DNA from: Tenggerimyces flavus
GTDB taxonomy: Bacteria; Actinomycetota; Actinomycetes; Propionibacteriales; Actinopolymorphaceae
Length of the DNA stretch: 64,000 nt
Reading direction: 5' to 3'
NCBI RefSeq assembly: GCF_016907715.1
Contig: NZ_JAFBCM010000001.1
Location: forward strand, 310,001-374,000
Shown here piece by piece: positions 7,178 to 41,442 of this stretch. Below the pieces are notes generated by a model, which saw only the letters and a list, made by a program, of their open reading frames with translations, made no database searches and was not told the DNA's origin. Position 1 is the stretch's first letter, and every line of letters begins with the position of its first letter. The translations under genes and the position numbers were made by a program.

Positions 7178-7339
7178 GTGGCGGTGGGGCGGCCGGAGGG
7201 GCACGTCACCGTACGGCTCTCGTCGGTGCTCGACCTGTCCCTGACGCGGCCGGCGGACGTGCCGGTGCGGATCGAGCTGTCCCGCGGCGCGCGCGAGGTG
7301 TGCCCCGGCGTGGACGAGTTCACCGTCGCGCCTGGCTAG
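7178..7339 (+). pseudogene. short gene remnant, 53 codons
   Basis: An open stretch from a GTG reads VAVGRPEGHVTVRLSSVLDL and ends at TAG 7337-7339. Its hydrophobic/charged alternation and host-like codon use look like the C-terminal beta-strands of a former protein, but no family is recognised. An in-frame stop lies just upstream at 7157. It could also be a real 53-residue protein. Confidence 0.3.
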
Positions 7340-7349
7340 CCTGGGGGTT

Positions 7350-7637
7350 GTGACGCAGAGGCAGCCCCGGTTGGAGATCGAGTACTGCACCCAGTGCCGG
7401 TGGTTGCTGCGTGCGGGGTGGACGGCGCAGGAGCTGCTGACCACGTTCGTCACCGAGCTCGGCGAGGTCGCGCTGATCCCCGGCGTCGGCGGCGTGTTCG
7501 ACGTACGCCTGGACGGCGAGCTGCTCTGGTCGCGGAAGGACCAGGGCGGGTTCCCGGAGCTGGCGGCACTGAAGCAGCTCGTCCGCGACCGCATCGCCCC
7601 CGACCGTTCCCTCGGCCACTCCGACAAGAAGGACTAG
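7350..7637 (+). CDS. SelT/SelW/SelH family thioredoxin-fold protein, 95 aa
   Basis: The N-terminus reads RLEIEYCTQCRWLLRAGW: the CxxC motif directly after the first strand is the signature of the SelW-like (Rdx) family, here with Cys in place of selenocysteine. The later GVFDVRLDGELLWSRK and GGFPE segments match the family core. Such proteins are small redox partners of unknown specificity. The GTG start at 7350 gives the usual family length of about 90-95. The stop codon shares a CTAG with the stop of the convergent LLM gene. Confidence 0.88.
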   Translation: MTQRQPRLEIEYCTQCRWLLRAGWTAQELLTTFVTELGEVALIPGVGGVFDVRLDGELLWSRKDQGGFPELAALKQLVRDRIAPDRSLGHSDKKD

Positions 7638-8428
7638 CGCGGCGGGCCGTCGAGGATCCGGCGTTCGGTCTCGACCATGCCCTTGTCGTCTCCGTCCGGG
7701 CCGTCGATCAGCCAGGTCGCGCCGGCGCGTTCCAGCTCGGCGGGAGTCGAGACGCCGGTGTGCAGCGTGACGATCTCGAAGCCCTCCGGCGGCGCCATCT
7801 TCTCCACCACCTCGGCGAGCCCGGCCGCGGTGAGACCGGCCTCGTTGGTCTTGAAGTCCAACGGGAAGTAGCCGTCCCAGCGCAACGCGCGCTCCATCGG
7901 GCGCTTGTACGGCAACGTGCCCGCCACCCAGATCGGCGGCCGCGGCCGCTGCACCGAGCCGGGCGCGAGCCGCGCGTGGATCGAGTAGTGCTCGCCGTCG
8001 TGGTCGACCTGCTCGCCCCGGAAGAACGTGTCGAGCACCGGGAGCGCCTCGTCCAGCATCGAAGCGTGCACCCGCGGCTGGTCGGACTCGCCGAAAGCCG
8101 CGTACTCCAGGTCGACCGGCACCCCGAGCCCCACGCCGAGCACGGCCCGACCGCCGGACAGGTGGTCGAGCGTCGTGACCTCCTTGGCCAGCTTCCACGG
8201 CCGCCGCCGCGCGACCGGCGTCACCAGCGTGCCGAGGCGTACGCGGGACGTCCGCGCGGCCACCGCGCCGAGCAGCACCCACGGGTCGTGGACGTCGGGA
8301 GCGGACGGGTCGAGCCGCAGGTGGTCCCAGAGGAAGAAGCCGTCCCAGCCGGACTCCTCGGTCGCGATCGCCAGCTCGATCAGTCGCGTCGCCGACCCGA
8401 TCATCGGGAGGTTCACGCCATATCTCAT
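7634..8428 (-). CDS. LLM-class F420-dependent oxidoreductase, 264 aa
   Basis: Luciferase-like TIM barrel: MRYGVNLPMIGS first strand, ESGWDGFFLWDHL, VRLGTLVTPVARRRPWKLAKE, LDHLSGGRAVLGVGLG and the C-terminal RPRPPIWVAGTLPYKRPMERAL strand. These are the cofactor-pocket segments of F420/FMN-dependent LLM enzymes. Substrate unknown. The ATG at 8428 overlaps the stop codon of the large LuxR regulator gene as ATGA, so the two are co-translated. Confidence 0.88.
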   Translation of the reverse strand: MRYGVNLPMIGSATRLIELAIATEESGWDGFFLWDHLRLDPSAPDVHDPWVLLGAVAARTSRVRLGTLVTPVARRRPWKLAKEVTTLDHLSGGRAVLGVGLGVPVDLEYAAFGESDQPRVHASMLDEALPVLDTFFRGEQVDHDGEHYSIHARLAPGSVQRPRPPIWVAGTLPYKRPMERALRWDGYFPLDFKTNEAGLTAAGLAEVVEKMAPPEGFEIVTLHTGVSTPAELERAGATWLIDGPDGDDKGMVETERRILDGPPR

Positions 8429-11085
8429 GCCTCAGGCTTACCGTGCCCCACCGACAACAACGTCTCGAGGTCCTTCCGCGTCTGCCCGCCGAGCTTCCGC
8501 AGCGCGCTCGCGACGTGGCTCTCGACGGTCCGCGGCGACACGTACAGCCGCGCGGCGATCTCGGCGTTGGTCTGCCCCGACGCCGCGAGCTGCGCGACCT
8601 CCCGTTCGCGCGGCGACAGCGCCGAGCCGTACGACCGGCGCCCACCACGCCACGGGTACGGGACCGGCACGCCCGTCCGCCGCATCTCCCGCAGCACCCG
8701 CGCCAGCGACGCGACCGCGCCGACCGCGTCGTACGCCTGCGCGCCCTCAAGCAGCCCGAGTCGCTCGGAGATCCGCGCCGCCTCGTACGGCAGGCGCAGC
8801 CGTACGAACTCCTCCCGCGCCTCCTCCAGCCGACCCTCGCAGGACGCCAGGTGCGCCCGGGCCGCAGGCGCCGCCACCCCCGCCAGGCCGACCGCGAACT
8901 CCACCACCGCCGCCGAGGCCGCAGGCGACGAGGCCTCGACCAGGCACGACACCGTCTCGCCCGCCCAGACCCAGTTCCCCTTGGCCCTAAGGACGTTCAG
9001 CCCCTCCGACGCCTGCGCAGCCGCCTCGACGGACCGTCCCGACGCGAGCAACAGCCGCGCCAGAGCGGAACGCGCCGGAACGAGCGGCCACAGCGCACCG
9101 ACCCGTTCCGCCGTCCCGACGACCGCGCGCAGCCGGCGTTCCGCCTCGTCCGGATCGCCCGCGACCGCGAGCACCGCGCCGAGCAGGTACTCCGTCTCCA
9201 GGCTCGCCGCCGAGAACTCGCTCGTCGACAACGCGCGCACCCGTTCCAGCAAGCCCACGAAGCGTCCCGCCGCCAGATCGACCGACGCCGACACCAGATC
9301 GAGCAGCGTGTTCACCCGGAAGTGCTCCGCCCGCGCGGCGACCACGCGGCACTCCGCCAGCATCCGGTCGGCCAGCGCGATGTCACCGACGTGCACCGCG
9401 GCCTGTGCCCAGTTCAGGCAGGCCCGGGCGTGTTCGCGCGGCTCGTCCGCCACCGCCGGCGTCGCCAACAAAGCAGTCATCGCCGAAGCAGCGGACGGGT
9501 CCGCGACCTCGATCAGCAACGACACCCGCGCCACGCCGACCGCCGCGACCACGAACGGCTCGCCGCTCAGCTCCGCCGCCACCACCGCCTCCAAGCACCG
9601 AGCGCGGTGCTCGGCGATCGAACGTCCCGTCACGAGGTCCGGCACCGCCAGGATCGCGAGCGCCAACGCCAACTGGTCGGGCCGGTCGGCGAGATCCACG
9701 GTCGCGCGAGCGATCTCCTCGTACCCACGCAGAGCCTCGCCCTGCTGCCGCAACAACCGCCCGAGCAGGAACCTCAGCTCCCCATCGGCGCTCGGCTCCA
9801 GCTCGACCGACGCCAGCACCCGGTCCAGTACGGGTGCCGCCTCCGACTGCGCGAGCCCCTGGACCGCCGCCCGCGCCAGCCACGCCGCGAGCCGCACCCG
9901 GTCCGACGCCGCCAGCCCGGGCACCTCGACCGCCCGGACGAGATACCGCGCGGCCGCCGCGTCGTCGCCCTGTGACTGCGCGAGCTCCGCCGCGGCCTCG
10001 GCGTACTTCACGAACGACAGCAGCCGTCCCGCCTGCTCGTAGTGGTGCGCGATCTGCGCGACCGGCAACGGCACCACGCCCTGCAGCACCTCGGCCACCC
10101 GTTGGTGCAGCCACCGCCGCGTCGGCGCGGGAACGGACTGGTAGACGACCTGCCGCGCGAGCTCGTGCCGGAAGCCCGTCCCCTCGTGCAGCAGCCCCGC
10201 CGCATGGCAACGGCTCAGCGACCGGACCACGGTCGCCACGTCGAGCCCCATCACCGCCGCGAGGATCTGCTCGTCCGGAACGAGACCGAGCACCGCCGAC
10301 GCGCCGAGCACCTCCCGCGGCTGCTCCTCCAACGCCGCGAGCCGCGGCAGCACCGCGTCGCGCAACCCCGTCGGCACCGACCCTGACCCAGCCGCGACGA
10401 CCTCCTCGACGACGAACGGGATCCCCGCGGTCAGCGCGTGCAGCGACCGCGCGTACGGCTCCGGCACCTCCGCGGTCTCCAGCAGGATCGCGGCCAGCTC
10501 GCGGACGGCGTCCAACGGCAGCGGCGACAGCGCGATCCGCGAAGGCCGGGACCGGGCGAACGCCTCCCACGCCGGCGTCTCCCGCGCAGTGAGCACGACC
10601 GCCAGCTCCGGCGGCATCCGTGCGGCCAGGTAGCCGAGGAACTCCGCGGTGCTCGCGTCCGCCCACTGCACGTCCTCGACCACGAGCACCGCCGGCCCCA
10701 GCTCGCCGAGCAACGTCGCCGCGGCGCGCAGCAGGCGATGCCGTTCGGCCCGATGGTCGTCCAACGCCGGCGGCGCCGAAGGCAGCCGCGCGGCGAGCTC
10801 AGGCAGCACCGGCGCGAGCGCGCCGACGACCGGGTTCAGCCGCTGCGGCAGCGCCACGTCCTTCAGCGCCTCGAGCACCGGCGCGAGCGGGAACGGCTCG
10901 GCCACCGGCTCGCACGAGCCGCGCAGCAGCTGCGGAACGCGACCGGCCAGCTCGCGCACGAGCCGGCTCTTGCCGATTCCGGCCTCGCCCTCGACGACCA
11001 CGAACGCGGGCGGCGCCGAGACCGCTTCGAGCAGCTCAGCCAGCTCGGCGTCGCGCCCGACCAGCCGTTCCGACACTCGCGCCAA
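8425..11085 (-). CDS. large LuxR-family regulator with AAA/STAND ATPase domain (LAL type), 886 aa
   Basis: N-terminal ATPase module with Walker A GEAGIGKS at residues 33-40 and a Walker B-like VLVVEDVQWAD near 122-134. A long helical, TPR-like middle region rich in Leu/Ala follows. The C-terminus is a LuxR-type helix-turn-helix (SPREREVAQLAASGQTNAEI, then SPRTVESHVASALRKLGG). Length and order match the LAL/MalT-like regulators of actinobacteria, which act as ATP- and ligand-dependent activators. It is transcribed divergently from the S8 protease gene; a perfect dyad lies in the shared intergenic region, so the protease/kelch pair is the natural target candidate. Confidence 0.92.
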   Translation of the reverse strand: MARVSERLVGRDAELAELLEAVSAPPAFVVVEGEAGIGKSRLVRELAGRVPQLLRGSCEPVAEPFPLAPVLEALKDVALPQRLNPVVGALAPVLPELAARLPSAPPALDDHRAERHRLLRAAATLLGELGPAVLVVEDVQWADASTAEFLGYLAARMPPELAVVLTARETPAWEAFARSRPSRIALSPLPLDAVRELAAILLETAEVPEPYARSLHALTAGIPFVVEEVVAAGSGSVPTGLRDAVLPRLAALEEQPREVLGASAVLGLVPDEQILAAVMGLDVATVVRSLSRCHAAGLLHEGTGFRHELARQVVYQSVPAPTRRWLHQRVAEVLQGVVPLPVAQIAHHYEQAGRLLSFVKYAEAAAELAQSQGDDAAAARYLVRAVEVPGLAASDRVRLAAWLARAAVQGLAQSEAAPVLDRVLASVELEPSADGELRFLLGRLLRQQGEALRGYEEIARATVDLADRPDQLALALAILAVPDLVTGRSIAEHRARCLEAVVAAELSGEPFVVAAVGVARVSLLIEVADPSAASAMTALLATPAVADEPREHARACLNWAQAAVHVGDIALADRMLAECRVVAARAEHFRVNTLLDLVSASVDLAAGRFVGLLERVRALSTSEFSAASLETEYLLGAVLAVAGDPDEAERRLRAVVGTAERVGALWPLVPARSALARLLLASGRSVEAAAQASEGLNVLRAKGNWVWAGETVSCLVEASSPAASAAVVEFAVGLAGVAAPAARAHLASCEGRLEEAREEFVRLRLPYEAARISERLGLLEGAQAYDAVGAVASLARVLREMRRTGVPVPYPWRGGRRSYGSALSPREREVAQLAASGQTNAEIAARLYVSPRTVESHVASALRKLGGQTRKDLETLLSVGHGKPEA

Positions 11086-14200: not shown

Positions 14201-15525
14201 ATCCAATCGCGATCATGGACAACGCGATGGTGACTCACGAGGGCGAGCTGTACTCGTTCGGCGGCCGGACGGCGCAGGGCGCGACCAACCTCGCGTACCG
14301 CTACAACCGGGAATCGTCAACCTGGAAGGCGATCGCGCCGATTCCGCGGGCCCGGCAGAAGCCGTCGATCGGCGTGCTCAGCGGCAAGGTCTACGTCGCC
14401 GGCGGCTGGTCGGCGACCGGCGACGCTAGGGCTGACATGGACGTCTACGACCCGGTCGCCAACACGTGGGCAGCCGGGCCGAGCATGCCCGGCCGGACGA
14501 CGGCGGCGGGCACGGCGGTGGTCGGCGACCAGCTGTTCGTCATCGGCGGCTGCATCTCCGAGTGCAGCGAGCGGCAGGTCTACCGGTACGACGCGTCCGA
14601 CCGCGCGTGGACCCGGCTCGCCGACTACCCGCGCGACGTCGCGTGGCAGGCCTGCGGCGGCATCGCCGGCGTCGTCTACTGCGCGGGTGGCACGTCCGAG
14701 AGCGGCACGTCGGCACGCACGTTCCGCTACGACGCGGCGGCGAACATCTGGACGCGGCTCGCCGACCTGCCGACCGACGTGTGGGGCATGGGCTCGACGG
14801 TGTCCGCCGGTTCGCTGCTCCTGTCCGGCGGCGTCGTCGACGACGCCGTGACGAACGAGGGCTTCGCGTACGACCCGGTGTCCGACTCGTGGTCGGCGCT
14901 GGCGAACTCCCGGCACAGCTACTACCGCGGCGGCTCTGCATGCGGTTTCGCCAAGGTGGGTGGGTCTCCTGGCAACTTCGTGGGCTCGCCGTTCGGTGAG
15001 GTGCTGACCGGGTTCGCCGACTGCGGCCTGGCCGATCCGGTGCGCTGGCTGCGGTCCTCGCCTTCGTCGGTGACGATCGCGCCGGGTGCGTCGGTCGACG
15101 TCACGGTGACGTTCGACGGCACCGGGGTCGACCAGCCGGGCACGTACGTCGCGGCGCTCGAGGCACGCGACACCACGCCGTACACGCCGCCGTCGGTGGC
15201 CGTCTCGCTGCGGGTGGACGCCCCGGCATCGTGGGGCAAGCTCGCCGGCACCGTGTACGGGAAGGACTGCGCGGGCGTCAAGGCGCCCTTGCCTGGCGCG
15301 TCGGTCCGGCACGACGGGCCGCTGGCGGACCGTACTTTGCGCACCGACGCGGCCGGTACGTACGCCGTGTGGCAGGACCGCGCGAACAGCCCGGCCACGC
15401 TGGTCGTCACCAAGGACGGCTGGTTCCCGGCGACCGGTTCGGTGCAGCTCCGGGCCGGGCAGACGACCACGAAGGACTTCACGTTGAACAGAACCGGCTG
15501 CCCGACTGGAGGAAACGCCCGATGA
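11215..15525 (+). CDS. secreted S8 subtilisin-like protease with carboxypeptidase-regulatory-like and kelch domains, 1436 aa
   Basis: Signal peptide from the ATG at 11215 (VRALVAVVLGAGLLMAP, cleavage near AQA-E). A propeptide precedes the S8 domain, whose triad is visible: Asp181 (NVDSGAQ), His229 (GHGTHTMG) and Ser400 (GTSMATPH). Then come a carboxypeptidase-regulatory-like beta-sandwich (about 470-550), a jelly-roll-like segment (ETFDEP...WTVTDPLGNG, about 655-810), a second regulatory-like domain, kelch repeats with paired aromatic/Gly motifs (VYVAGGWSATG, LFVIGGC, VYCAGGTSESG, about 985-1260) and a last regulatory-like domain. It is an exported endopeptidase with probable carbohydrate- or protein-binding tails. 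The start is preferred over GTG 11161 because of the signal peptide. It overlaps the next gene as ATGA. Confidence 0.9.
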   Translation: MLVRALVAVVLGAGLLMAPHAQAEPAPAVRKIDASLQRGLAAAGSADFLVSFGARSNVSPSGSWAERGRQVYDALERTAEKSQRDVRKELDKAGVKYRAFSVANVVYVFGGTTALADKISANAAVTRLDPARTYKLPEPAKSKAKAAAVDGVEWGVASIRADQVWSQFGTRGEGIVVANVDSGAQFDHPELAASYRGRQADGSVRHDYNWYDPAGICPAGLGPCDNAGHGTHTMGTMVGANGIGVAPGVKWIAAKGCEGEGCSSFALLSSAQWLLAPTDAQGQNPRPDLRPNVVNNSWGGDNGPVEDPWYDEAIANWIDAGIFPAFANGNAGPGCDTAGTPGDSLLAYAVGAYAADGSIGSFSSRGPGADDTPKPNLAAPGVAIRSSLPGNGYGTWDGTSMATPHLAATVALMWSVAPALTGDIEATEALLDETAIDVDDTSCGGTAADNNVFGEGRLDAFRAVEASPRGPTGTLRGTVRTESGDPIANATVTLTGVANRRLQTAPDGTFGALLSTGTYTATVTAFGYAPRSAEVTVTEGGETVRDFALPVLPRVTVSGTVKEGSAHGWPLYATITADDVPDGTFYTDPKTGRYSFEVPANASYTLRIRSLYPGLGEQVVPVAVGAADVSRDFGLTSDPYDCTAPGYREAAPRIAYSETFDEPTTPAGWTVTDPLGNGQVWRFDDDRGFGNRTGGEGLYGWVFSADYGPDAEQDTALVSPPVDLSGTTTPALWFNTDYSDGPSSVADVDVSVDGGTTWTNVWRATQPSVPESRELVPLPQAVGKTDVRVRFHYTASFDGWWMVDNVDLGEQVCETVPGGLVLGHVRDANTDQPLVGATVRHDGGSVTTVATPTDPQLDDGFYWTFVPNGSRAFTASQPRYQAATRTVQVAPDAANVADFEPTAGVIEASVTSLSGRTTLGGQTTAKVTIRNEGTASTRVDLGERSGPVTVQAASAPIPVRRVAGTFSTGAKPSGGVVPKVAPADTAGGPWSSLADYPIAIMDNAMVTHEGELYSFGGRTAQGATNLAYRYNRESSTWKAIAPIPRARQKPSIGVLSGKVYVAGGWSATGDARADMDVYDPVANTWAAGPSMPGRTTAAGTAVVGDQLFVIGGCISECSERQVYRYDASDRAWTRLADYPRDVAWQACGGIAGVVYCAGGTSESGTSARTFRYDAAANIWTRLADLPTDVWGMGSTVSAGSLLLSGGVVDDAVTNEGFAYDPVSDSWSALANSRHSYYRGGSACGFAKVGGSPGNFVGSPFGEVLTGFADCGLADPVRWLRSSPSSVTIAPGASVDVTVTFDGTGVDQPGTYVAALEARDTTPYTPPSVAVSLRVDAPASWGKLAGTVYGKDCAGVKAPLPGASVRHDGPLADRTLRTDAAGTYAVWQDRANSPATLVVTKDGWFPATGSVQLRAGQTTTKDFTLNRTGCPTGGNAR

Positions 15526-18260
15526 TCCGCGCAGCCTTGCTCGCCGGCCTGCTCGCGCCGCTCGCCATCGCGATGCCCGTCGCGGCGGCCTCGACCGTGA
15601 CGCTCAGCGGCGTCGTTCGCGACGGCTCCGGACAGGACTGGCCGCTGCGGAGCTCGGTGTCCGTGACCGGCGGCTCGTCAACGCACAGCTCGCCGTTCAA
15701 CGGCAAGTACAACGTTGAGGTGCAGCCGAACAAGACGTACACGGTGACCGTTCAGCCTTCTGCCGTTGGGTATCCGGCGTTGACGCGGGAGGTGTCGGTG
15801 GGGCGGCGCGACCTCACGGTCGACTTCGCGGTGCCGGTGGACGCCGACTCGTGCCAGGCACCTGGCTACCACCACACCTCGCAGGGTGCGGTGGCCTCGT
15901 TCGACTCCGGACCCGACGGCTGGACGATCACGGACCCGCTGGGGACCGAGCAGGTGTGGCGGTTCGACGACCCGGGTGAGCACGGCAACCTGACCGGTGG
16001 GTTGGGCGGTTTCGCCATCCTGGACAGCGAGTTCTACGGTTTCGACAAGGCGCAGGACTCGTCGCTGATGTCACCGGTCGTCGACCTGCGCGGCGTTTCC
16101 GCACCGACGATCGGCTTCCGCAGCGACCTCTACCTGTTCGACTACACCGAGCCGTCGGGGATCGCCGACGTCGACCTGTCGTTGGACGGCGGGGCGACGT
16201 GGTCGAACGTGTGGCGCGCGGACGTCATCCGGCGCGGGCCGGAGCAGGTGACCGTGCCGATCCCACAGGCCGCGGGCGAACGGTTCGTACGCGCTCGGTT
16301 CCGCTACCACGAGACCGAGAACACCGCGGGCGTGTGGTGGCAGGTCGATAGCGCGTGGGTCGGCAACCGGTCCTGCGATCCGGCTCCGGGTGGGCTGGTC
16401 GTGGGGTACGTACGGGACCGCAACACCGGCACCGGCCTGGTGGGCGCGACGGTCCGCGGGCCGTCCGGCTCGTCCGTGTCGTCCGTGGAGGGCGGTCTCT
16501 ACTCGCTGTTCAGCCCGGTGACGGGATCGCGGGAGGTCGTGGCGAGCTCGGCGGAGTACCTGTCGCACGTGCGCCGGGTGACCGTCGGGGTCGCGCCGGT
16601 CCGGTCGGACTTCTCGTTGGCAGCCGGGCAGGTGAAGACCTCGTCGACGTCCGTCGAGGCGGAGGTGGAGCTCGGCGAGAAGGACACGGCGACGGTGACG
16701 TTGCGGAACCGCGGCTCGGCCGATGCCTCGGTGACGTTGGCGGAACGGCCTGGCTCGTTCGAGCTCGCTTCCGCGCGGGTGGCTTCCGAGGGCGCGCCGT
16801 TGCGCCGGGAGAAGGGCTCGTTCAGCCCGTTCGCCGCGGGTGCCGCGACCCGTACCGCGTCCGCCGGGCAACCGGCCGCGGTGAGCGCGGCCGACGGCTG
16901 GGGCGGCGTCGCGGACTACCCGATCGCGATCAGCGACAACGCGGCGGCGACGTACCAGGGCAAGGTGTACTCGGTCGGCGGGCAGGAGCACCTGCGGTAC
17001 GGGATCAGCGAGGCGTTCGTCTTCGACCCCGCCGCGGGCGGCTGGTCGGAGCTGCCGGCACTGCCGCGCGGCCGGCAGGCGGCGACCGCGGCGTTCCTGG
17101 ACGGGAAGCTGCACGTCGTCGGCGGCTGGAGCGAGAGCGACTGGGGTTACGACGCGCACGTGGTGCCTGAGATGGACATCTACGACCCGGCGACCGGCAC
17201 CTGGTCGAGCGGGCCGCGGATCCCCGCGGCGACGGCGGCCGCCGGTCGCGCCGTCCTGGACGACCGCCTCTACGTGGTCGGCGGCTGCCAGGGACCGGAG
17301 CAGTGCGACGCGACCGCGGTGTACCGGTACGACCCCGCTGACCTGGTGTGGGAGCGGCTGGCCGACTATCCCGACGAGGTGTCGTGGCTCTCGTGCGGCG
17401 CGATCGAGGAGCAGCTCTACTGCGCTGGCGGGACGCGGAACTGGCAGCGGCCGGTCTCGTCCCAGGCGACCTACTCGTACAACCCGCGGACGGACACCTG
17501 GACGCGCCGGGCCGACCTGCCCATCGACCTGTGGGCCAGCGCCTCGTCGGTCTCCGACGGTCGGCTGGAGCTGATCGGCGGCGTGACGGACGGGACCCAG
17601 CTGGTCACGAACGAGGGCTTCGCGTACTCGCCGCTGTCGGACTCGTGGACGGCGTTGCCGCGTTCGACGTACGCGACCTACCGGGGCGCGGCGGCCTGCG
17701 GGATCTACAAGGTGGGCGGCGGAACGTCGCACACCTTGGGGTCGCCGTTCGTCGAGGTGCTCGCCGGGCACTCCGACTGCGGCGCCGACCGCGACACGTC
17801 CTGGCTGTCCGCGACACCGGGCTCTGTGGAGCTAGCGCCCGGGGACCGGTCGACGGTACGGATGCGCTTCGACTCCTCGGTGGTGTCGCAGCCGGGGACG
17901 TACACCTCGACGCTGCTGGTGCGGGAGGACTCGCCGTACCCGACGGGCACGATCGCGCTGACCCTCTCGGTCTCGCCGCCGCGTAGGTGGGGGCTTCTGC
18001 GGGGAACGGTGACCGGGGTGTCCTGCGAGGGTGTCGCCCGCGTGTTGGCGGGCGCGACGGTGTGGCTGGACGGGCGACTGGACGACTTCACGCTGCCGAC
18101 GGACGCTTCGGGGTCGTACGCGCGGTGGCTCGACAGCCGCAACGGGCCGGCCACGATGATCACCGGCCTGGACGGCTGGGTGCCGGACGTACGGTCGGTC
18201 AGCCTGCGGGCGGGGCGGACGACGGTGGCTGACGTGGTGCTCCAACAGGACGGTTGCTAG
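15522..18260 (+). CDS. secreted kelch-repeat protein, protease-less paralogue of the upstream S8 protein, 912 aa
   Basis: Signal peptide (RAALLAGLLAPLAIAMPVAA) followed by the same module order as the C-terminal two thirds of the preceding gene: a regulatory-like domain, the GWTITDPLGTEQVWRFDD jelly-roll segment, another regulatory-like domain, kelch blades (VYSVGGQE, LHVVGGWSE, LYVVGGCQ, LYCAGGTRN) and a C-terminal domain ending GWVPDVRSVSLRAGRTTVAD. It has no subtilisin domain. GGAGGAAA lies at ribosome-binding distance and the start overlaps the upstream stop, so translation is coupled. Tandem duplication with loss of the protease is the simplest history. The last 87 bp of the gene recur at 20425-20511. 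Confidence 0.85.
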   Translation: MIRAALLAGLLAPLAIAMPVAAASTVTLSGVVRDGSGQDWPLRSSVSVTGGSSTHSSPFNGKYNVEVQPNKTYTVTVQPSAVGYPALTREVSVGRRDLTVDFAVPVDADSCQAPGYHHTSQGAVASFDSGPDGWTITDPLGTEQVWRFDDPGEHGNLTGGLGGFAILDSEFYGFDKAQDSSLMSPVVDLRGVSAPTIGFRSDLYLFDYTEPSGIADVDLSLDGGATWSNVWRADVIRRGPEQVTVPIPQAAGERFVRARFRYHETENTAGVWWQVDSAWVGNRSCDPAPGGLVVGYVRDRNTGTGLVGATVRGPSGSSVSSVEGGLYSLFSPVTGSREVVASSAEYLSHVRRVTVGVAPVRSDFSLAAGQVKTSSTSVEAEVELGEKDTATVTLRNRGSADASVTLAERPGSFELASARVASEGAPLRREKGSFSPFAAGAATRTASAGQPAAVSAADGWGGVADYPIAISDNAAATYQGKVYSVGGQEHLRYGISEAFVFDPAAGGWSELPALPRGRQAATAAFLDGKLHVVGGWSESDWGYDAHVVPEMDIYDPATGTWSSGPRIPAATAAAGRAVLDDRLYVVGGCQGPEQCDATAVYRYDPADLVWERLADYPDEVSWLSCGAIEEQLYCAGGTRNWQRPVSSQATYSYNPRTDTWTRRADLPIDLWASASSVSDGRLELIGGVTDGTQLVTNEGFAYSPLSDSWTALPRSTYATYRGAAACGIYKVGGGTSHTLGSPFVEVLAGHSDCGADRDTSWLSATPGSVELAPGDRSTVRMRFDSSVVSQPGTYTSTLLVREDSPYPTGTIALTLSVSPPRRWGLLRGTVTGVSCEGVARVLAGATVWLDGRLDDFTLPTDASGSYARWLDSRNGPATMITGLDGWVPDVRSVSLRAGRTTVADVVLQQDGC

Positions 18261-18291
18261 CCCGGTCGACGAGCAGGCGATGGCGGGCTTC
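18174..18291 (+). repeat. left copy of a 118-bp direct repeat (kelch gene 3' end plus flank)
   Basis: Identical at 115 of 118 positions to 20425-20542, by my alignment. It contains the last 28 codons and stop of the kelch gene plus 31 bp beyond. The two copies bracket the AbiE-like cassette. Confidence 0.9.
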
Positions 18292-18356
18292 GCCGACGCA
18301 GTGGCACGGGTCTGATCCTGGTCACGTCCCATGGTCCTGACGTCAGACCGTGCGCG

Positions 18357-18413
18357 CCGTTCGGGAAAAATTGCTATTCCGCCGTCAGCGGAGTTAAGCT
18401 TTTTCCCGAACGG
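18357..18413. promoter_or_regulatory. 14-bp perfect inverted repeat in the promoter of the AbiE-like cassette
   Basis: Arms CCGTTCGGGAAAAA (18357-18370) and its complement (18400-18413) flank 29 bp. The spacer holds a -35-like TTGCTA (18371) and a -10-like TAAGCT (18395), 18 bp apart, plus an inner TCCGC/GCGGA dyad. The right arm ends 11 bp before the GTG start. AbiEi antitoxins are known to repress their own operon by binding inverted repeats in the promoter, which this fits. Confidence 0.6.
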
Positions 18414-18424
18414 AGGCGAATGTA

Positions 18425-19513
18425 GTGAACGACACCGCAGCGCCGCAGTCAGAGGCCGAAGTGTTGGCGCGCGGTCTGGCCATCCTGACCGAGCGGCTAC
18501 CACCGGGCTGGACCACTCGCCCCACGCCCGTACCGGCCAGTCGGGACAGTGGCGTAGACAGCATCGTAGAACTGGCTTCCCCGGACGGGACGACGACGTG
18601 GCTTCTCATCGAAGCCAAACGCGTCGTGGACTCACGTGACGTCGCCTCCATCAGTGAACTGCTCCACAACTACCTCAGCGATATCCCTGACCAGCTCCGC
18701 ATACGAGTCGTGATTGCACGCTACTTGTCACCACCCGTACGCGAGCGCCTTGCCGACCATGGCCTGTCATATATAGACGCCACCGGCAACATACGGCTGA
18801 CGGCCTCCAAACCCGGCCTGTTTCTCTCAGATCATGGAGCCGACCGGGATCCTTGGCGTGGTCCTGGTCGCCCACGGGGCACCTTGAAGGGAACGCCAGC
18901 ACATAAGATCGTTCGCGCGTTGTTGGATTTCGACCGACAATGGTCGATGCGCCATCTCATCGAGACCGCCGAAGTATCAACTGGCGCGGCATACCGTGTA
19001 GTCGATTTCTTGGCCGATGAGGATCTGATCCAGAAGGACGAAGCGAGGATCGTCGCATCGGACTGGCGGCGACTACTGCGGCGATGGAGCCGAGACTACG
19101 AGTTTGTCGGCAGCAATCGGACCACCCGCTGGATTGCTGCCAGGGGTATTGACCGGCTCCTAAGACGCGCGGTGGAAAGCCCCACAGAGTATGCCGTCAC
19201 AGGAACCACCGCAGCCGCTGAATGGGCCCCCTACGCCCCGGCCCGGGCAGCGATGATCTATACCAGCGAGGCGACGATGGCCGCCGACTTATGGGACCTG
19301 CGCCCCGCCGACGCCGGAGCGAACGTGATTCTCGCCGAGCCGGAGAGCAACGCCGTCTTCGCCAGAAGCCGCCCGTCGGCATCCGGCGGCTACCAGATTG
19401 CGGCACCCACGCAGGTCGCCGTCGATCTAATGACAGGCCCCGGCCGAAATCCGTCTGAAGCAGAGGAACTCGTTGAATGGATGGTGCGCAATGAACGCGC
19501 ATGGCGGGAGTAG
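18425..19513 (+). CDS. AbiEi-like type IV antitoxin / winged-helix regulator with PD-(D/E)xK-like N-terminus, 362 aa
   Basis: The N-terminal third has a restriction-fold-like pattern: Asp45 (GVDSIVEL) and Glu63-x-Lys65 (LLIEAKRV). Then comes RLADHGLSYIDATGNIRL, a signature of a family usually annotated as AbiEi-like, a winged helix (KIVRALLDFD, MRHLIETAEVSTGAAYRVVDFL, near 155-210), and a C-terminal domain with TEYAVTGTTAAAEWAPYAPA like other AbiEi antitoxins. It should repress the operon and neutralise the nucleotidyltransferase product of the next gene, which it overlaps by 23 bp. GC content is visibly lower than in neighbours, suggesting transfer. Whether the PD-(D/E)xK-like part cuts DNA is unknown. 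Confidence 0.75.
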   Translation: MNDTAAPQSEAEVLARGLAILTERLPPGWTTRPTPVPASRDSGVDSIVELASPDGTTTWLLIEAKRVVDSRDVASISELLHNYLSDIPDQLRIRVVIARYLSPPVRERLADHGLSYIDATGNIRLTASKPGLFLSDHGADRDPWRGPGRPRGTLKGTPAHKIVRALLDFDRQWSMRHLIETAEVSTGAAYRVVDFLADEDLIQKDEARIVASDWRRLLRRWSRDYEFVGSNRTTRWIAARGIDRLLRRAVESPTEYAVTGTTAAAEWAPYAPARAAMIYTSEATMAADLWDLRPADAGANVILAEPESNAVFARSRPSASGGYQIAAPTQVAVDLMTGPGRNPSEAEELVEWMVRNERAWRE

Positions 19514-20330
19514 CGAAGATCTTCTGGTGGCGTCGCGCACCGCGATGCTTGACGCTCTCGCCGCCCTCGATGCTCAGCGAGACGCCGTGATCGTCATTGG
19601 TGCTCAGGCGATCTACCTGCGCACGTCAGCCGCTCCGGTAGCCCTGGCAGAGGCGACAAAGGACAGCGATCTAGCGTTGGACCCACGCTCGCTAAACGAC
19701 GCCCCTCTTATAGAGGAAGCGATGACCCAGGCTGGATTCTATCTGAATCCCATCAGCAATCAGCCAGGCGCATGGTTGAGCCCGAAAGGCGTACCCGTCG
19801 ACCTCATGGTCCCAGAAACGCTCGCAGGCAAGGCCGGCAAACAGGCTCGCGGAGCACGGATTCCGCCCCACAGCAAGACAGTCGCCAGGCGGGCGAGGGG
19901 CCTCGAAGCCGCTCTCGTAGACAATTCGTCGATGGAGGTGTTCTCACTGGACACGTCCGACAATCGTTCCTACACGGCAGCGGTCGCCGGACCTGGCGCA
20001 CTTCTCGTCGCGAAGCTGTACAAGATCGCGGAACGCGTCGATTTCCCAACGCGACTGGTCGACAAGGATGCGCACGATATCTATCGCATACTCGTCGACA
20101 TTGAGACAGAAGCGTTGGCCGAAGCCTTCAGACGTTTGAACGCCGACCCAATCAGCAGTCAGGAGACGGGAGAGGCCCTGCAGTTTCTGGACATTCTGTT
20201 CGCCAAAGGACCATCCGCACTCGGGTCGGCGATGGCCGGGCGGGCCGAGACCGGAATCGGCGAACCGGTCACCGTGGCATTGCAGGTATCCGTCTTGGCC
20301 GCGGATCTAGTAGCCGCTACTCGATCCTGA
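19491..20330 (+). CDS. AbiEii-like nucleotidyltransferase toxin, 279 aa
   Basis: Nucleotidyltransferase fold: VIVIGAQAIYLR (residues 33-44) stands for the GG/GA turn, followed by the acidic pair Asp58/Asp60 (KDSDLAL). PVDLMVPE around residue 105 would supply the third carboxylate strand. GALLVAKLYKIAERVD and KDAHDIYRIL match the helical part of AbiEii/AbiGii toxins, which modify tRNA or other targets with nucleotides and stop growth after phage infection. The ATG at 19491 is inside the antitoxin gene and is the last plausible start before the conserved part; 19473 is an alternative. Together with the preceding gene it forms a self-contained cassette. Confidence 0.75.
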   Translation: MNAHGGSSEDLLVASRTAMLDALAALDAQRDAVIVIGAQAIYLRTSAAPVALAEATKDSDLALDPRSLNDAPLIEEAMTQAGFYLNPISNQPGAWLSPKGVPVDLMVPETLAGKAGKQARGARIPPHSKTVARRARGLEAALVDNSSMEVFSLDTSDNRSYTAAVAGPGALLVAKLYKIAERVDFPTRLVDKDAHDIYRILVDIETEALAEAFRRLNADPISSQETGEALQFLDILFAKGPSALGSAMAGRAETGIGEPVTVALQVSVLAADLVAATRS

Positions 20331-20424
20331 TGGCACCTACCCTCCGTGAGGACTCGCTACATACACGGACCTGGTTGCAATGACACCAAGATTGTTCCGC
20401 AGTGCAATTGGTGCCCGCGCCGAA

Positions 20425-20542
20425 GGCTGGGTGCCGGACGTGCGGTCGATCAGCCTGCGGGCGGGGCGGACGACGGTGGCTGACGTGGTGCTCCAGCAGG
20501 ACGGTTGCTAGCCCGGTCGACGAGCAGGCGATGGCGGGCTTC
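20425..20542 (+). repeat. right copy of the 118-bp direct repeat
   Basis: Duplicates 18174-18291 with three differences. In the kelch reading frame two are silent (GTA/GTG, CAA/CAG) and one changes Val to Ile, as expected for allelic divergence. This copy still lies in the 3' end of the small minus-strand gene 20450-20689. Confidence 0.9.
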
Positions 20543-20689
20543 CTCGCGGGCCTCGACCTTCGCCAGCCACTCGCGGAGCGGCCTGGTGTCACCCTCGGCC
20601 ACTGCCGCGTTACGCGCCGCGATGAACTCCTCCCGTTCCTGCTGCTGCGCCGCCGACAGGCGTCCATAGCGTCCGGGCTGTTGGGTCAT
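20450..20689 (-). CDS. small hypothetical charged protein, 79 aa
   Basis: Reads MTQQPGRYGRLSAAQQQERE at the start, then a mostly helical, Ala/Glu/Arg-rich body (AEGDTRPLREWLAKVEAREE) and a Pro-rich tail. No family is recognised. Its last 31 codons are antisense to the duplicated kelch 3' end, so before the insertion it presumably overlapped the kelch gene tail to tail, and the right repeat preserves its frame. The ATG at 20689 is the first start with a helical, coding-looking sequence. Confidence 0.5.
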   Translation of the reverse strand: MTQQPGRYGRLSAAQQQEREEFIAARNAAVAEGDTRPLREWLAKVEAREEARHRLLVDRASNRPAGAPRQPPSSAPPAG

Positions 20690-20744: not shown

Positions 20745-20768
20745 TCGGTGTGGCCTAGGCCACACCGA
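20745..20768. terminator. 24-bp perfect palindrome
   Basis: TCGGTGTGGCCT followed directly by its complement. It lies between the 81-bp repeats and the 79-aa gene and could form a strong cruciform or hairpin; there is no T-run, so the terminator label is tentative. Confidence 0.4.
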
Positions 20769-20778
20769 CGCGAAGGGG

Positions 20779-21036
20779 ACACAGCGACCCCTTGCCGAGG
20801 CACGCATCGCCCCGACACCGAGGCGGGTCAGCCGGCCGGCAACCCCAGACACGAAGAGAACACAGCGACCCCTTGCCGAGACACGCACCACCCCGACACC
20901 AAGGCGGGTCAGCCGGCCGGCAACCCCAGACACGAAGAGAACACAGCGACCCCTTGCCGAGGCACGCATCGCCCCGACACCGAGGCGGGTCAGCCGGCCG
21001 GCAACCCCAGACGCGAAGGGACCCCTTGCCGAGGCA
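20779..21036. repeat. 81-bp tandem repeat, three units plus a partial fourth
   Basis: Units begin at 20779, 20860 and 20941; a partial fourth copy covers 21020-21036. Each contains CCCCTTGCCGAG and the palindrome GCCGGCCGGC. Units 1 and 3 agree where unit 2 differs. No reading frame across the array looks coding: differences cause changes in every frame. There are no unique spacers, so it is not CRISPR. Confidence 0.85.
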
Positions 21037-36111: not shown

Positions 36112-36535
36112 GTCAGGTGTACAGGGCGCGGCCCTCGATCAATTCCAGGTCGAAGTCGGCCGCCGCTCGGTCGCGACGTACCCGCTCCCGTTCGCACCCT
36201 GGACAGCATGCAAGTCGCCAACCCGGGGATTGGGTGGGCCGCCAGGGGATCGAACCCTGAACCCGCGGAGTCCAGGACGGTCGTCATGGTCGTTTGGCGA
36301 TGGATCGGGCTTCCTCAAGCCCAGTTGAGAGAAACATGCTTGGTCGCCTCGATCCTCTCTGGTTCTTTCAGTGCCGTCCGCAACCGTCTCCTGGGCTAAG
36401 TCGGGGAGTTGATCATGGTCGACGCAGGAGGAGAAGACGAACGGCTTCGCTGGGGCTGTACCTTGCTGCTGGATTCCCCCGGCTCGCCTGCGTCTTCCAC
36501 GAGCGAAGGCCCCACGACTGCGGCACGCTGGATCC
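36112..36535. other. gene-free stretch carrying the left attachment site
   Basis: About 420 bp between the monooxygenase and the first element gene. The only recognisable item is the 3' half of a tRNA-Lys at 36233-36269. No coding sequence or clear promoter is seen; base composition drops after 36270. Confidence 0.6.
36233..36269 (-). repeat. distal attachment site: 37-bp copy of the tRNA-Lys 3' end
   Basis: Identical to 41368-41404. It holds tRNA nucleotides 39-73 plus CC on the minus strand. The tRNA 5' half is missing, so this is an att scar, not a gene. Confidence 0.9.
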
Positions 36536-37111
36536 ATGATGGTCCTTTACGTTCTTGCCGGGCTGTTTGAGTTTGTGGGTCTCGTGCTGGCCCTACACGG
36601 TTTCAAGCGAACATGGGCGGAGTTTGTTGAGGGCGAGCCACTGAGCGCAGCCTTTGTCCGGTCGTCCTGGTCGGCAGTTGGGCGGCTTGCTGGGGTCGTC
36701 AACCGATGGGGACGGCGCATGTTGCGCATGAAGCCAAGGCCCATCGTTGGACAAGTCGCCGCTTCACTCGAGACGAGCTGGGCCATGCATGCTACCGGTA
36801 GGGTGAAATTCGGCCCTCTACCATCGATTGCGATGGATCCGTACAAGTTTGCCGCAGAAGTCCGAAATCGGCTTCAGCGCGTTCACGATATAGCGCAGGA
36901 TGTTCGTGAGGCGGTCGTTGCGGAGCGAACGGCCCGTACTGAATCGGTGTCAGAGTTGGATCGTCGTATGACGGAGCGGATCGCCGAGGTGGCGGGAAAG
37001 TCGGAATCCATTGCTGTAGGCGGCTTGGTTGAGCAGATCTACGGATGGCTCTTCATCGTTCTCGGGGTCGCGCTGGGCACGATCGGCAACATCGTTCAAG
37101 CAGTCGAGTGA
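36536..37111 (+). CDS. two-TM coiled-coil membrane protein, 191 aa
   Basis: N-terminal TM helix (MVLYVLAGLFEFVGLVLAL), a cytoplasmic-looking middle with a predicted coiled coil (EVRNRLQRVHDIAQDVREAV to RRMTERIAEVAGKSESIA, about 105-160) and a C-terminal TM helix (GWLFIVLGVALGTIGNIV). I recall similar small proteins scattered in actinobacterial genomes without function. It is the first gene of the tRNA-Lys element on the plus strand. It may be an accessory membrane sensor or effector for the large gene that follows, but 484 bp separate them. Confidence 0.65.
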   Translation: MMVLYVLAGLFEFVGLVLALHGFKRTWAEFVEGEPLSAAFVRSSWSAVGRLAGVVNRWGRRMLRMKPRPIVGQVAASLETSWAMHATGRVKFGPLPSIAMDPYKFAAEVRNRLQRVHDIAQDVREAVVAERTARTESVSELDRRMTERIAEVAGKSESIAVGGLVEQIYGWLFIVLGVALGTIGNIVQAVE

Positions 37112-37595
37112 TGATCACGAGGTACCGCGGCTTTGGTCGGTGTCCTGGCTGGGGTCGGGAGAGTGGGGGCCGTAGCTTGTCCGGGCTCGGCGGGCGGCGT
37201 GCCGCCTGCCCGTACCACCCGCCGTGGCCTCCGCTCTTCGGGCCCCGGACCCAGCGAGGTGGGTAAAGCCGCGGGAGCGGCCTCAGCCGTTGACAGCTAC
37301 GCGTCAAGACGGGATCGACGCTGTGAGGGTCGTCAGATTCTGGCGGCCCTCGTGGCGCGCCTAGCCGCGTCGGCCGACCGGGCGCCCTTAGGCGCGGAGG
37401 GAAGGCCGGCGCCCTTTGGGCGGGCGCGGCGGCCCCGTAGGGCCGCCCTTGAAGACGTAGGGAAACTCATCACCGGCCTCGTCCGGCTAGCGATTCAGAA
37501 AATCCGTGCCGCCTCTTGAGCTGTTCGCGGGATACTTGCAACTGGAGTCTCTGCAAGTGCGCCGAACTCCTTTGGTGTAGTGGAGGAAGGATTCC
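37112..37595. other. 484-bp gene-free GC-rich block with several dyads
   Basis: Contains TTGAC-N8-GTCAA (37290-37307), a GCGGCCC/GGGCCGC stem-loop (about 37428-37446) and runs of GGCGCCC-like words. No protein looks encoded. It is more GC-rich than the genes on either side and may hold promoter, transfer-origin or RNA functions for the element. Confidence 0.4.
37534..37558. promoter_or_regulatory. dyad ACTTGCA-N11-TGCAAGT upstream of the 658-aa gene
   Basis: Perfect 7-bp arms, 38 bp before the TTG start of the large element gene. Likely an operator or RNA hairpin in its leader; no regulator is encoded nearby in an obvious way. Confidence 0.4.
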
Positions 37596-39572
37596 TTGGG
37601 ACGGCAGAGCAGAAGCAAGGCCGAACGCCGCAACGGTCTGCGGCCACCGACGGCCAAGGAGGCGCTGCGTGCGGCTCAGCGGGCAGAGCGGCGGGGCCGA
37701 AATTATGGCAATGATCTGTCAGACTACGAGAGGCTGGCCAGCCTTGGTCCCGAGTACCTAAAGGAAGCCCTCATAGCCCGGCACAACCGGCGGATGCTGA
37801 ACATCCAGGACATGCCTGATGACCTGCGCTCCGTTGGGTTGCAATCTCTTGCGCCGGTGCCGTTCCTGGATCGACTTCTTGTCAATCACGGCGCAAGCAA
37901 GGACAGGCCGCCAGCATCATATGCCGGTCCATGGATCGATCACCTAGCTTGGGGCGTGGATAGCGCGGTGGCGGCGATTCGCCTTGCATTAGCGGGTCAA
38001 CTGGCAGGCGCAACAATGGTTGCACGGCTTCAGTTGGAGCGCTGGACGAATCATCGCGCATTCAATGCGAAGATCGCCCATAGGTCCGGGGAATCTAGCT
38101 TTGACTACTTCGCAAGGGTCTGGAGTCTTGACACTCAGGCGCAGACGTCTCACACCACTGATCTTGAGGCTGATCCTTCTGGAGACATCTTTGGAGGGCA
38201 TGCCATAACTGATGCGTTGACCCGATCCGTGGGGGAACCCGACGATCCTCATCGCCACGTTCGGTTGAGTGACGGCGAAGAGATCTGCGCGGCACTGACG
38301 CTGGGTCTGCTTGATGATCTGTTACATGGGTTCGACGGCGTGGATGCTGTGGAATGGGACTCACGAGAAAGGTGCGACCCTGGTAAGGTTCCGGCGAATG
38401 CATACGTGGCAATAGGCGCGATCGCAAGTGCTGTAACATTGAGCCTTCGGCAGATTCGAGAGGCTCTCAGCCTTCTCGCGATCGAACGACAGGATATGAA
38501 AGCTGTCATGATATTGCGACAGTTTCCGGACCATTTCTCGAAGGCTGACAGCGATAGTGGTACTGAAGTGGCCGGACGTGCGCCGATACCCAAGCAGGCG
38601 AAGTCACCCCCGATCCCGTTCCCTGTCCAACTTTCAACTCCCGACCTAGCGTCATTGCTGCCGTTGCATCCAATGCATGGACTTCGCACCAATCCGTTGG
38701 GGGCTACTGAGCGCGCGGCGGAGTTGTTCGACCAGGTGTTAGATGGACAGAAGCCCTTCGGTCGCTATTTTAGAGACGACGAGCTTCTTAGATTCGCTTT
38801 TGCTTGGCACCGTCGTGCATCTGCCCGCTCTGCGCTGCTGGCGTTTGATCAAGAGCGTGAACATTTGGGAGACGACTTCAATCTAGACTCTCTGGGCGGA
38901 AGGGAGATGTGGTACGTACTTGTCAGTGAAGCGGCTGGTGTAGCTGCGGGGTGGTTGTCCGGTCCAGAAGCTGATGCTGGTGCGCTAATCGCGAGCGGCT
39001 TACGGTCAGCCTATTGGCTTTGGCTTGAAGATGACGACAGGGCGATGGCAGTCCTCCGATGCGTCTTGGAACAATGTGCTCGGATGAGGGCGTGGCGTAC
39101 CAAGCCAGAGAAGGCGGCACAATTGGAGGAATCAACGCGAACGACGCCTCGCGATTGGCTTGGCGCGGCTAGCTGGCGAAGATTGGAGCCACTCAACCGA
39201 GCCCTTGGAGAACTAGCTCATAGCAGAATCACGTCAAGCTGGCATGGTGCTAGAGAGTTGCTCGCCACATTCCAGAGGGACGGTGATAGCGAAGAGTCGT
39301 TCTTTACCGCAAGGGGACATTGTCTCGACGTAGTAACGAAACTTGCTTGCCAGGAGGTTCTCGCCACATCAAGACAGGTCTCCAACGCCGTTGGCGACGA
39401 GTTCGACGCGTTGTTTCAATCGATTGGAATTGCCGGTGCAGAGGTTGACGTCGAGCGAGGTGCACTTTTCGACCATATTTGGAGCAAGAGAAGCATTCCC
39501 CTTGGCCCGCCCACCTTTGGTGGGCCAGCGGTGGAATGGTTCCGAGCAAATCGCGCCGGTGCAGGCTCGTGA
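37596..39572 (+). CDS. uncharacterised 658-aa protein of the tRNA-Lys element
   Basis: I do not recognise the family. The N-terminus is very basic (GRQSRSKAERRNGLRPPTAK) and the rest looks almost all alpha-helical with many Trp/His/Arg residues. Features worth noting are RLQLERWTNHRAFNAKIAHR near 145-165, HRHVRLSDGEEICAALTLGL near 220-240, RYFRDDELLRFAFAWHRRAS near 390-410 and WLEDDDRAMAVLRCVLEQC near 475-495. A HEPN-like RNase cannot be excluded but no RxxxxH is convincing. The TTG start is supported by the strong GGAGGAAGG ribosome-binding site 5 bp upstream. Lower GC than host genes indicates transfer. As the largest cargo gene it probably carries the island's main function. Confidence 0.75.
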   Translation: MGRQSRSKAERRNGLRPPTAKEALRAAQRAERRGRNYGNDLSDYERLASLGPEYLKEALIARHNRRMLNIQDMPDDLRSVGLQSLAPVPFLDRLLVNHGASKDRPPASYAGPWIDHLAWGVDSAVAAIRLALAGQLAGATMVARLQLERWTNHRAFNAKIAHRSGESSFDYFARVWSLDTQAQTSHTTDLEADPSGDIFGGHAITDALTRSVGEPDDPHRHVRLSDGEEICAALTLGLLDDLLHGFDGVDAVEWDSRERCDPGKVPANAYVAIGAIASAVTLSLRQIREALSLLAIERQDMKAVMILRQFPDHFSKADSDSGTEVAGRAPIPKQAKSPPIPFPVQLSTPDLASLLPLHPMHGLRTNPLGATERAAELFDQVLDGQKPFGRYFRDDELLRFAFAWHRRASARSALLAFDQEREHLGDDFNLDSLGGREMWYVLVSEAAGVAAGWLSGPEADAGALIASGLRSAYWLWLEDDDRAMAVLRCVLEQCARMRAWRTKPEKAAQLEESTRTTPRDWLGAASWRRLEPLNRALGELAHSRITSSWHGARELLATFQRDGDSEESFFTARGHCLDVVTKLACQEVLATSRQVSNAVGDEFDALFQSIGIAGAEVDVERGALFDHIWSKRSIPLGPPTFGGPAVEWFRANRAGAGS

Positions 39573-39749
39573 CAATTCATGGTTTCGTCGGAGGGGATGG
39601 CTGGAAGTCGCCTGACAGTTACGTGTCAACTTACGGAGCCCATCCAGGAGTCGCGCGTCCATGCCCTAGCCCTGAAGAAGCAGCAATTCAAATGCGTCGA
39701 GTACGCAACGGGGGATGATTTTCCGGGAGGTCCGCATAGACTGTCTCGA

Positions 39750-40451
39750 CTATCGCTGCAGCCAAGACCTTGTCGCCTTGTCCCCACCATCGGTTAAGCG
39801 CCGGAAAGGCCGTGACGATTCGGTCAGCAATTTCGTGTCCTTGCATTTGAAGTACTCCGGATGGCAGGCGATGCTTATGCCACCTGAATAGAGCATCTGG
39901 CAGGACGTGTCATCGCTGAAGTTGAGCCTTTGACTTACGTATGCGACTACCAAGGGCATTTGCTCTGGCTCGTTGTTTCGGTAGGTGGTTTGATCGGATA
40001 GGTCGATTTCACTTGTCGATGCGATCCCCTCTCTGAGAAGAAGGAGTCCAACGGCCAGCGGATCGTAGACAATGTTCTCCACAGCGTACCTCTCGGGGAG
40101 CCGCGTTACGCCGGCAGGAGGAGCTGCGTCGTTGTTATCTCGGTCAATGAGGCCTTGTACCTTATAAGGACCACTCTGGCGAAGGCAGTTGACAAGTTCG
40201 AGTACTGCGGCATTTCCGCCGCGGCCTTTGGCTGTTGGGATGAACTCTAGGATTAGGTCCTGCCGCGAAACCTTCGGCTTGATCAATCGGAATAGTTCTT
40301 GGTAGCAGGCTTGATCAATTTCCGCCTCCACGAAGACTTGCCGGCGGTTTTCAACTCGTACCGTGAGCGTCTCGACGCCTTTAGTACCCGGTACCAGTTG
40401 GATCGGCACGTCCTCCCCGCGGTTGGCGAGTTGGAGGTAAAGGGAGTTCAC
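39750..40451 (-). CDS. TOPRIM/DUF4435-like protein, 233 aa
   Basis: The core reads RRQVFVEAEIDQACYQELFR (glutamate-containing first TOPRIM-like strand), later YKVQGLIDRDNN (DxD-like strand) and RYAVENIVYDPL, the pattern of DUF4435/OLD-related proteins, which occur with ATPases or alone in defence loci. Catalysis on nucleic acid is therefore possible but not shown. The GTG at 40451 is a provisional start: the reading frame continues upstream, but that part is antisense to the integrase. It is convergent with the 658-aa gene and head-to-head with the integrase. Confidence 0.55.
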   Translation of the reverse strand: MNSLYLQLANRGEDVPIQLVPGTKGVETLTVRVENRRQVFVEAEIDQACYQELFRLIKPKVSRQDLILEFIPTAKGRGGNAAVLELVNCLRQSGPYKVQGLIDRDNNDAAPPAGVTRLPERYAVENIVYDPLAVGLLLLREGIASTSEIDLSDQTTYRNNEPEQMPLVVAYVSQRLNFSDDTSCQMLYSGGISIACHPEYFKCKDTKLLTESSRPFRRLTDGGDKATRSWLQR

Positions 40452-40494
40452 CACCGGACGAGCCGATCGGCTGATCAAGGCTGTTCGTGCGGCT

Positions 40495-41313: not shown

Positions 41314-41367
41314 ACGGGGGATGGCCCGGTCGACTCGAAGGTCTGCGAAGCGCTGACCTGGGGGTTT

Positions 41368-41404
41368 GGTGGGCCGCCAGGGGATCGAACCCTGAACCCG
41401 CGGA
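41368..41404 (-). repeat. proximal attachment site within tRNA-Lys
   Basis: 37 bp shared exactly with 36233-36269; covers the anticodon-stem 3' strand, T arm and acceptor 3' strand of the tRNA and the first two bases of CCA. Confidence 0.9.
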
Positions 41405-41442
41405 TTAAAAGTCCGCTGCTCTGCCAGTTGAGCTAACGGCCC
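41370..41442 (-). tRNA. tRNA-Lys (anticodon UUU)
   Basis: Cloverleaf with acceptor GGGCCGT/GCGGCCC, D arm GCTC..GAGC, anticodon loop CTTTTAA (anticodon 41407-41409), T loop TTCGATC and discriminator A; genome-encoded CCA follows (41367-41369). Compared with the second copy at 45079 it has A31-U39 instead of G31-C39. Confidence 0.95.

Follow-up and report, generated by a model that had tools for sequence, protein, structure and literature searches.

We analysed a 64,000-nucleotide stretch (hereafter the window) of the single 8.5-Mb chromosome of Tenggerimyces flavus, positions 310001-374000, in which a small cassette with an AbiE-like toxin-antitoxin (TA) pair lies behind a gene for a kelch-repeat protein, between two copies of the 3′ end of that gene. 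The explanation that we favour, with a probability of roughly 0.58, is that this cassette is one member of a group of integrase-less TA cassettes, which use a carried gene 3′ end as their recombination site and depend on an enzyme acting in trans. The main evidence comes from a sister cassette behind msrA in another genome, where comparison with related sequences directly supports that the gene end was supplied by the cassette and the native end displaced. The features of the kelch locus are as follows (window coordinates, strand, description):

15522..18260, plus strand: gene for a secreted kelch-repeat/CarboxypepD_reg protein of 912 aa (Pfam Kelch_1, 5e-30; open reading frame), whose 3′ end would be the docking site
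18174..18291, plus strand: left repeat copy, joined to kelch, attL-like (115/118 identity to 20425-20542)
18292..20424, plus strand: putative inserted cassette, delimited by composition and by the repeat boundaries
18357-18370 and 18400-18413, no strand assigned: predicted operator, a 14-bp inverted repeat, CCGTTCGGGAAAAA / TTTTTCCCGAACGG, around a possible promoter
18425..19513, plus strand: AbiEi-like antitoxin, 362 aa, with an N-terminal PD-(D/E)xK-like domain, a winged helix and an AbiEi_2-like C-terminus (Pfam, alignment, model, Foldseek)
19491..20330, plus strand: AbiEii-like nucleotidyltransferase toxin, 279 aa, with conserved GAQA and TKDSD motifs (Pfam, alignment, model, Foldseek)
20425..20542, plus strand: right repeat copy, attR-like, running into the native downstream gene (repeat match)
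20450..20689, minus strand: convergent gene for a 79-aa protein, its 3′ end inside the right copy (open reading frame)

The two direct repeats start 2251 bp apart (self-blast E value 2e-55). Each consists of the last 28 sense codons of kelch, the stop codon and 31 bp downstream, so that the gene-end duplicates reported by the first-pass annotation of this DNA were indeed present; the right copy also spans the 3′ end of the 79-aa gene, and both genes are intact. Exactly two copies were found in the whole chromosome (next best match 36 bits), which rules out the common multi-copy sequence that the same annotation had set against insertion. No diverged third copy was detected between genome positions 300 and 400 kb, the 100 kb around the locus, and a plasmid or phage as the source of the repeat was discarded, as nothing matched apart from one chance 34-bp stretch on a plasmid. 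An assembly artefact is unlikely, because the assembly is in one contig and the two copies differ. The 2133 bp between the repeats have a G+C content of about 0.62, compared to about 0.72 outside, and their only genes are the overlapping AbiEi-like and AbiEii-like ones. Neither an integrase nor a remnant of one was found within this 2.1 kb, in agreement with the annotation. The direct repeats restore the gene end, as in integrative elements at gene 3′ ends, and the own integrase of such elements is missing; att-like ends without recombination or transfer genes are those of a cis-mobilizable element (CIME).

In the genome that carries the sister cassette (G519, locus L211), an AbiE cassette whose toxin is 67% identical to that of the window lies behind msrA, with a 73-bp copy of the gene tail on its far side; the two msrA repeats have an exact 25-bp stretch in common. 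A search of 55 congeners of G519 gave 50 msrA genes, 30 of them readable. Almost all of these 30 (about 25 congeners) have the usual tail, similar to CPVGLTSGEA. The G519 gene ends in CPVGIVSADE, and a CPVGLTSGEA-like tail, with a nonsense change, is found in the displaced fragment on the far side. Over its body, G519 msrA is closest to the gene of G776 (0.93 identity) and ordinary with respect to that of G759 (0.84), whereas its last 48 bases are nearest to G759 (0.92, all others at or below 0.75), as are the 60 bases past the stop codon (0.75, others at or below 0.33). Behind its matching tail, G759 has other cargo, not recognised as a TA pair. This disagreement between the relationships of tail and body argues that the gene end came with the cassette. 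A further genome, G770, has a copy of this AbiE unit, including its msrA tail, beside a LacI-type gene, far from its own msrA, at 92% identity over 1577 bp counted from the exact tail boundary. The presence of unit and tail together at this second location indicates that the tail belongs to the mobile unit.

The msrA locus is a hotspot with different cargos. With an msrA-tail profile, a second tail copy was found 0.8-1.4 kb behind msrA in 9 of the 30 loci, and 8 of these 9 contain a recognisable TA pair between the copies. The pairs are a Phd/YefM-like protein with ParE (the Phd match being below its own cut-off), Gp49 (HigB-like) with a helix-turn-helix protein, a PIN toxin whose small partner has no Pfam match, and an HTH_17 protein with PIN_3; the ninth interval (L242) encodes a Gp49-like toxin whose partner is not evident. 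Copies of the tail core, oriented like msrA itself, occur as far as 21 kb downstream of the gene, and when profile and core searches are combined, further tail copies are present behind msrA in about 21 of the 50 msrA-bearing genomes. Beyond the AbiE cassette, G519 has a Phd/ParE-type cassette and then a third, partial tail; because of this order, we consider that AbiE entered next to msrA, ahead of the older cassette. No tyrosine integrase (PF00589) was detected in the intervals of six genomes (~66 kb together), a search that did not cover serine recombinases; the same genomes encode 15-38 PF00589 integrases each elsewhere. The displaced tails have a common start point and, across unrelated cargos, a ~16-base arm outside the gene homology (60% identity, versus 29% after shuffling). 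Such a fixed point and conserved arm appear to fit site-specific recombination better than random homologous exchange, without amounting to proof.

From these data, the following course of events can be proposed. Each very small cassette would carry a duplicate of a host protein gene's 3′ end, serving as its recombination end, and a circular form of the cassette would recombine with the 3′ end of the resident gene. The resident gene would receive the cassette's version of its end and stay functional, while the native end would be pushed to the far side, giving rise to long direct repeats. The recombinase, probably site-specific, would act in trans from elsewhere. In the window, the outcome would be an AbiE-like pair behind kelch, with kelch and the 79-aa gene left unbroken. 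We infer that the kelch copy worked as at msrA, by analogy with which the right copy is probably the displaced native kelch end; a circular intermediate and a recombinase encoded elsewhere are inferred as well. The first-pass annotation had suggested for kelch both entry at a protein-gene 3′ end, with a replacement end, and a possible hotspot; each now has its example at msrA, not at kelch itself. Relatives gave only kelch paralogues of 42-45% identity (one genome in the genus, eight in the family), so that neither an empty site nor alternative cargo was available for comparison.

The annotation had also read the three differences between the repeat copies as allelic coding changes, which we find to be a weak argument. 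They are, left/right, GTA/GTG at 18191 (silent), GTC/ATC at 18198 (Val/Ile) and CAA/CAG at 18245 (silent). The left copy has the rare codons, GTA accounting for 4 of 90 Val codons and CAA for 2 of 24 Gln codons, and its change able to alter the 79-aa protein lies in the copy from which this protein is not produced. The differences are also compatible with drift after duplication under the constraint of the gene that each copy completes, and they do not settle where the copies came from.

Flanking repeats were surveyed at 39 AbiE loci, 27 from an order-wide and 12 from a class-wide search; comparing the flanks with one another by tblastx was too noisy in this GC-rich DNA. Besides the window and the msrA locus, two loci had them. 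One (L213, in G735) has an AbiE cassette that follows a cytochrome P450 gene and is bracketed by a repeat of the P450 3′ end at least 261 bp long; this cassette and the msrA one are as minimal as that of the window. The other (L087, 6866-11756) spans 4.8 kb between 55-bp copies of a tRNA-Thr end and contains, in addition to an AbiE pair, a large helicase gene, which we take to be possibly of the TOTE type; no integrase was seen in this interval. Gene-end repeats are no fixed part of the AbiE family, yet they are recurrent at different protein genes. Repeats at L104 were set aside as rearrangements laden with insertion sequences. At L213, a Fic-like protein (3-1055) is encoded directly past the displaced P450 end, perhaps in a second cassette. 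At L096, an 879-bp perfect tandem duplication (7329-9081) lies inside the abiEi homologue, and could be an assembly effect.

Several observations weigh against the trans-acting explanation. Only about 4 of the 39 AbiE loci have flanking repeats; the kelch and msrA repeats have no clear common core; no empty kelch site is available for comparison; and neither a recombinase nor a circular intermediate is known for these cassettes. In addition, a gene-end case with an integrase remnant occurs in the same genome. A repeat scan covering 2.0 Mb of this chromosome found an actinomycete integrative and conjugative element (AICE; L121, G000 224581-236322) with 120-bp tRNA-end repeats and, 3.5 kb past it, a 3.2-kb insert (L122, G000 239789-243245) between 128-bp copies of an APH gene 3′ end. 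This insert encodes a Fic protein and a hydrolase, along with a truncated integrase end that shares 67% identity with the AICE integrase; TGGGCGGAGGATGGGGGA is present both at the boundary of the insert and in the AICE repeat. This case fits the decay of a conventional element.

The kelch cassette could likewise be the relic of an AICE- or prophage-type element, which used its own tyrosine integrase to enter at the kelch 3′ end and of which only the loss-resistant TA pair was left. The AICE, the APH insert and a tRNA-Lys element with an integrase in the window itself all speak for this reading. The tRNA-Lys element (36221-41442; 5.1 kb, G+C content 0.60) lies between 49-bp copies of the tRNA-Lys end and has a tyrosine-integrase open reading frame at 40495-41313. 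Despite this, we regard a relic as unlikely: the 2.1 kb retain no trace of an integrase, and the AbiE cassettes at msrA and P450, together with the other TA pairs, are equally minimal, so that the same decay would have had to occur repeatedly, which is hard to envisage. Somewhat less probable still is homologous, RecA-dependent integration without a site-specific enzyme, either by a single crossover of a circle or by one-sided recombination with a relative's kelch end plus cassette. Repeats of 73 to more than 261 bp give enough homology for it, and so would the exact 25 bp shared at msrA; this route leaves unexplained the single fixed start of the displaced msrA tails, next to an arm conserved outside the gene homology, and the occurrence of an msrA-tailed AbiE unit at a site that lacks msrA. 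Finally, a one-off illegitimate insertion, in which a staggered break or template switching duplicated 118 bp of the target and the copies then diverged, is compatible with the three differences (drift under separate constraint) and with most AbiE relatives being devoid of flanking repeats, but we consider it very improbable, given that the msrA end arrived with the cassette instead of being duplicated from the target, and that gene 3′ ends recur (kelch, msrA, P450, APH).

In the open-access literature, the described arrangement nearest to the cassettes proposed here is that of the serial Dehalococcoides ssrA islands, which include cis-mobilizable members and have an RNA gene as target, a 20-bp repeat and, in about half of them, serine recombinases (PMC3146451). 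In both series, copies of the target 3′ end delimit intervals arranged in tandem, a conserved motif lies immediately beyond the repeat, and many of the intervals lack an integration module. Unlike these islands, the present cassettes have protein-gene targets, repeats of 73 to >261 bp and intervals of 0.8-2.2 kb that contain hardly anything besides a TA pair; the six intervals searched for tyrosine integrases had none. Entry at a protein-gene 3′ end is known from e14 and phage 21 at icd, where e14 itself provides the end of the gene. It is shared also by PAISt at bacA (PMC4057263). From all of these, the present cassettes differ by the lack of an integrase and by their minimal TA cargo. The Acinetobacter pdif/dif modules are also small and integrase-less, some with TA pairs, and their sites are used by an enzyme in trans (PMC6449649). 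Here, in contrast, a chromosomal gene 3′ end takes the place of the short Xer site. Integron gene cassettes are serial and small, often contain TA pairs, and have one recombination site each. The msrA series resembles them in its small serial TA units, and differs in that host coding sequence would serve as the recombination site. No IntI or attC-type site was identified in it, though no search was aimed at attC.

According to a review, the mechanism of mobility and integration of chromosomal TA systems has yet to be elucidated (PMC7167474). Docking of the kind proposed may be one way in which TA genes enter chromosomes, and the msrA series makes the question testable for one group, as it offers defined ends and an exchange point, cargo from several TA families, and a host C-terminus whose change can be measured. 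Such docking would also explain how TA pairs come to lie tight behind unrelated genes without disruption, and TA pairs followed by a displaced gene end provide a sequence signature for finding more. We put forward more tentatively a general, integron-like TA route in Actinobacteria, in which integrase-less gene-3′-end cassettes would be stacked and exchanged by a trans recombinase so far unrecognised in this role, overwriting the C-terminus on entry. What is new compared to the described series is the protein-gene targets and a cargo of nearly only TA pairs.

The AbiE-like identity of the pair, proposed by the first-pass annotation, agrees with the gene order and the operator, both proteins being just under Pfam cut-offs. 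The antitoxin scored 20.1 bits with AbiEi_2 (cut-off 21) and had no NCBIfam match; the toxin scored 22.8 bits with NTP_transf_8 (cut-off 26.3), and its motifs G.QA and T.D.D are invariant in the family alignment. A PDB sequence search with the toxin matched no chain. Structure models were of high confidence, with a pLDDT of 88 for the antitoxin and 93 for the toxin. Using Foldseek, the best fold match of the antitoxin N-terminal domain was the EndoMS nuclease, the winged helix being present as well, and the best match of the toxin was ANT(2″)-Ia, a nucleotidyltransferase, although weak (E value 0.06). As in AbiE type IV systems, the operon is bicistronic and overlapping, antitoxin first, with an inverted-repeat operator. 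The start of the toxin gene is most likely ATG 19491, overlapping the antitoxin stop codon. The inverted repeat, whose arm spacing of 43 is also found upstream of the closest homologue (L081), is a predicted operator, such as is expected of a self-regulated operon. The pair resembles AbiE and MenAT in its overlapping two-gene order, AbiEi-like repressor, nucleotidyltransferase and inverted-repeat operator, and departs from them in its sub-threshold Pfam scores and in the extra N-terminal nuclease-fold domain of the antitoxin. To our knowledge, a PD-(D/E)xK-like domain is not part of classical AbiEi; the one here (18425-18860) has an E-x-K motif. Homologues of both proteins form a clear family across the order. 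Members up to 46% identical also occur on plasmids of Streptomyces and Rhodococcus, and a phage search gave none.

Weak homologues of part of the 79-aa gene were detected in three other genomes, and three 81-bp tandem repeats lie upstream of it, at 20767-21021. A uniform target duplication of ~120 bp, suggested by the repeat lengths of 118, 120 and 128 bp, was rejected: the 120-bp case is the tRNA-end AICE, and the similarity is probably a coincidence. The kelch and APH boundaries have GGCTGGGT in common, a post hoc and unproven observation.

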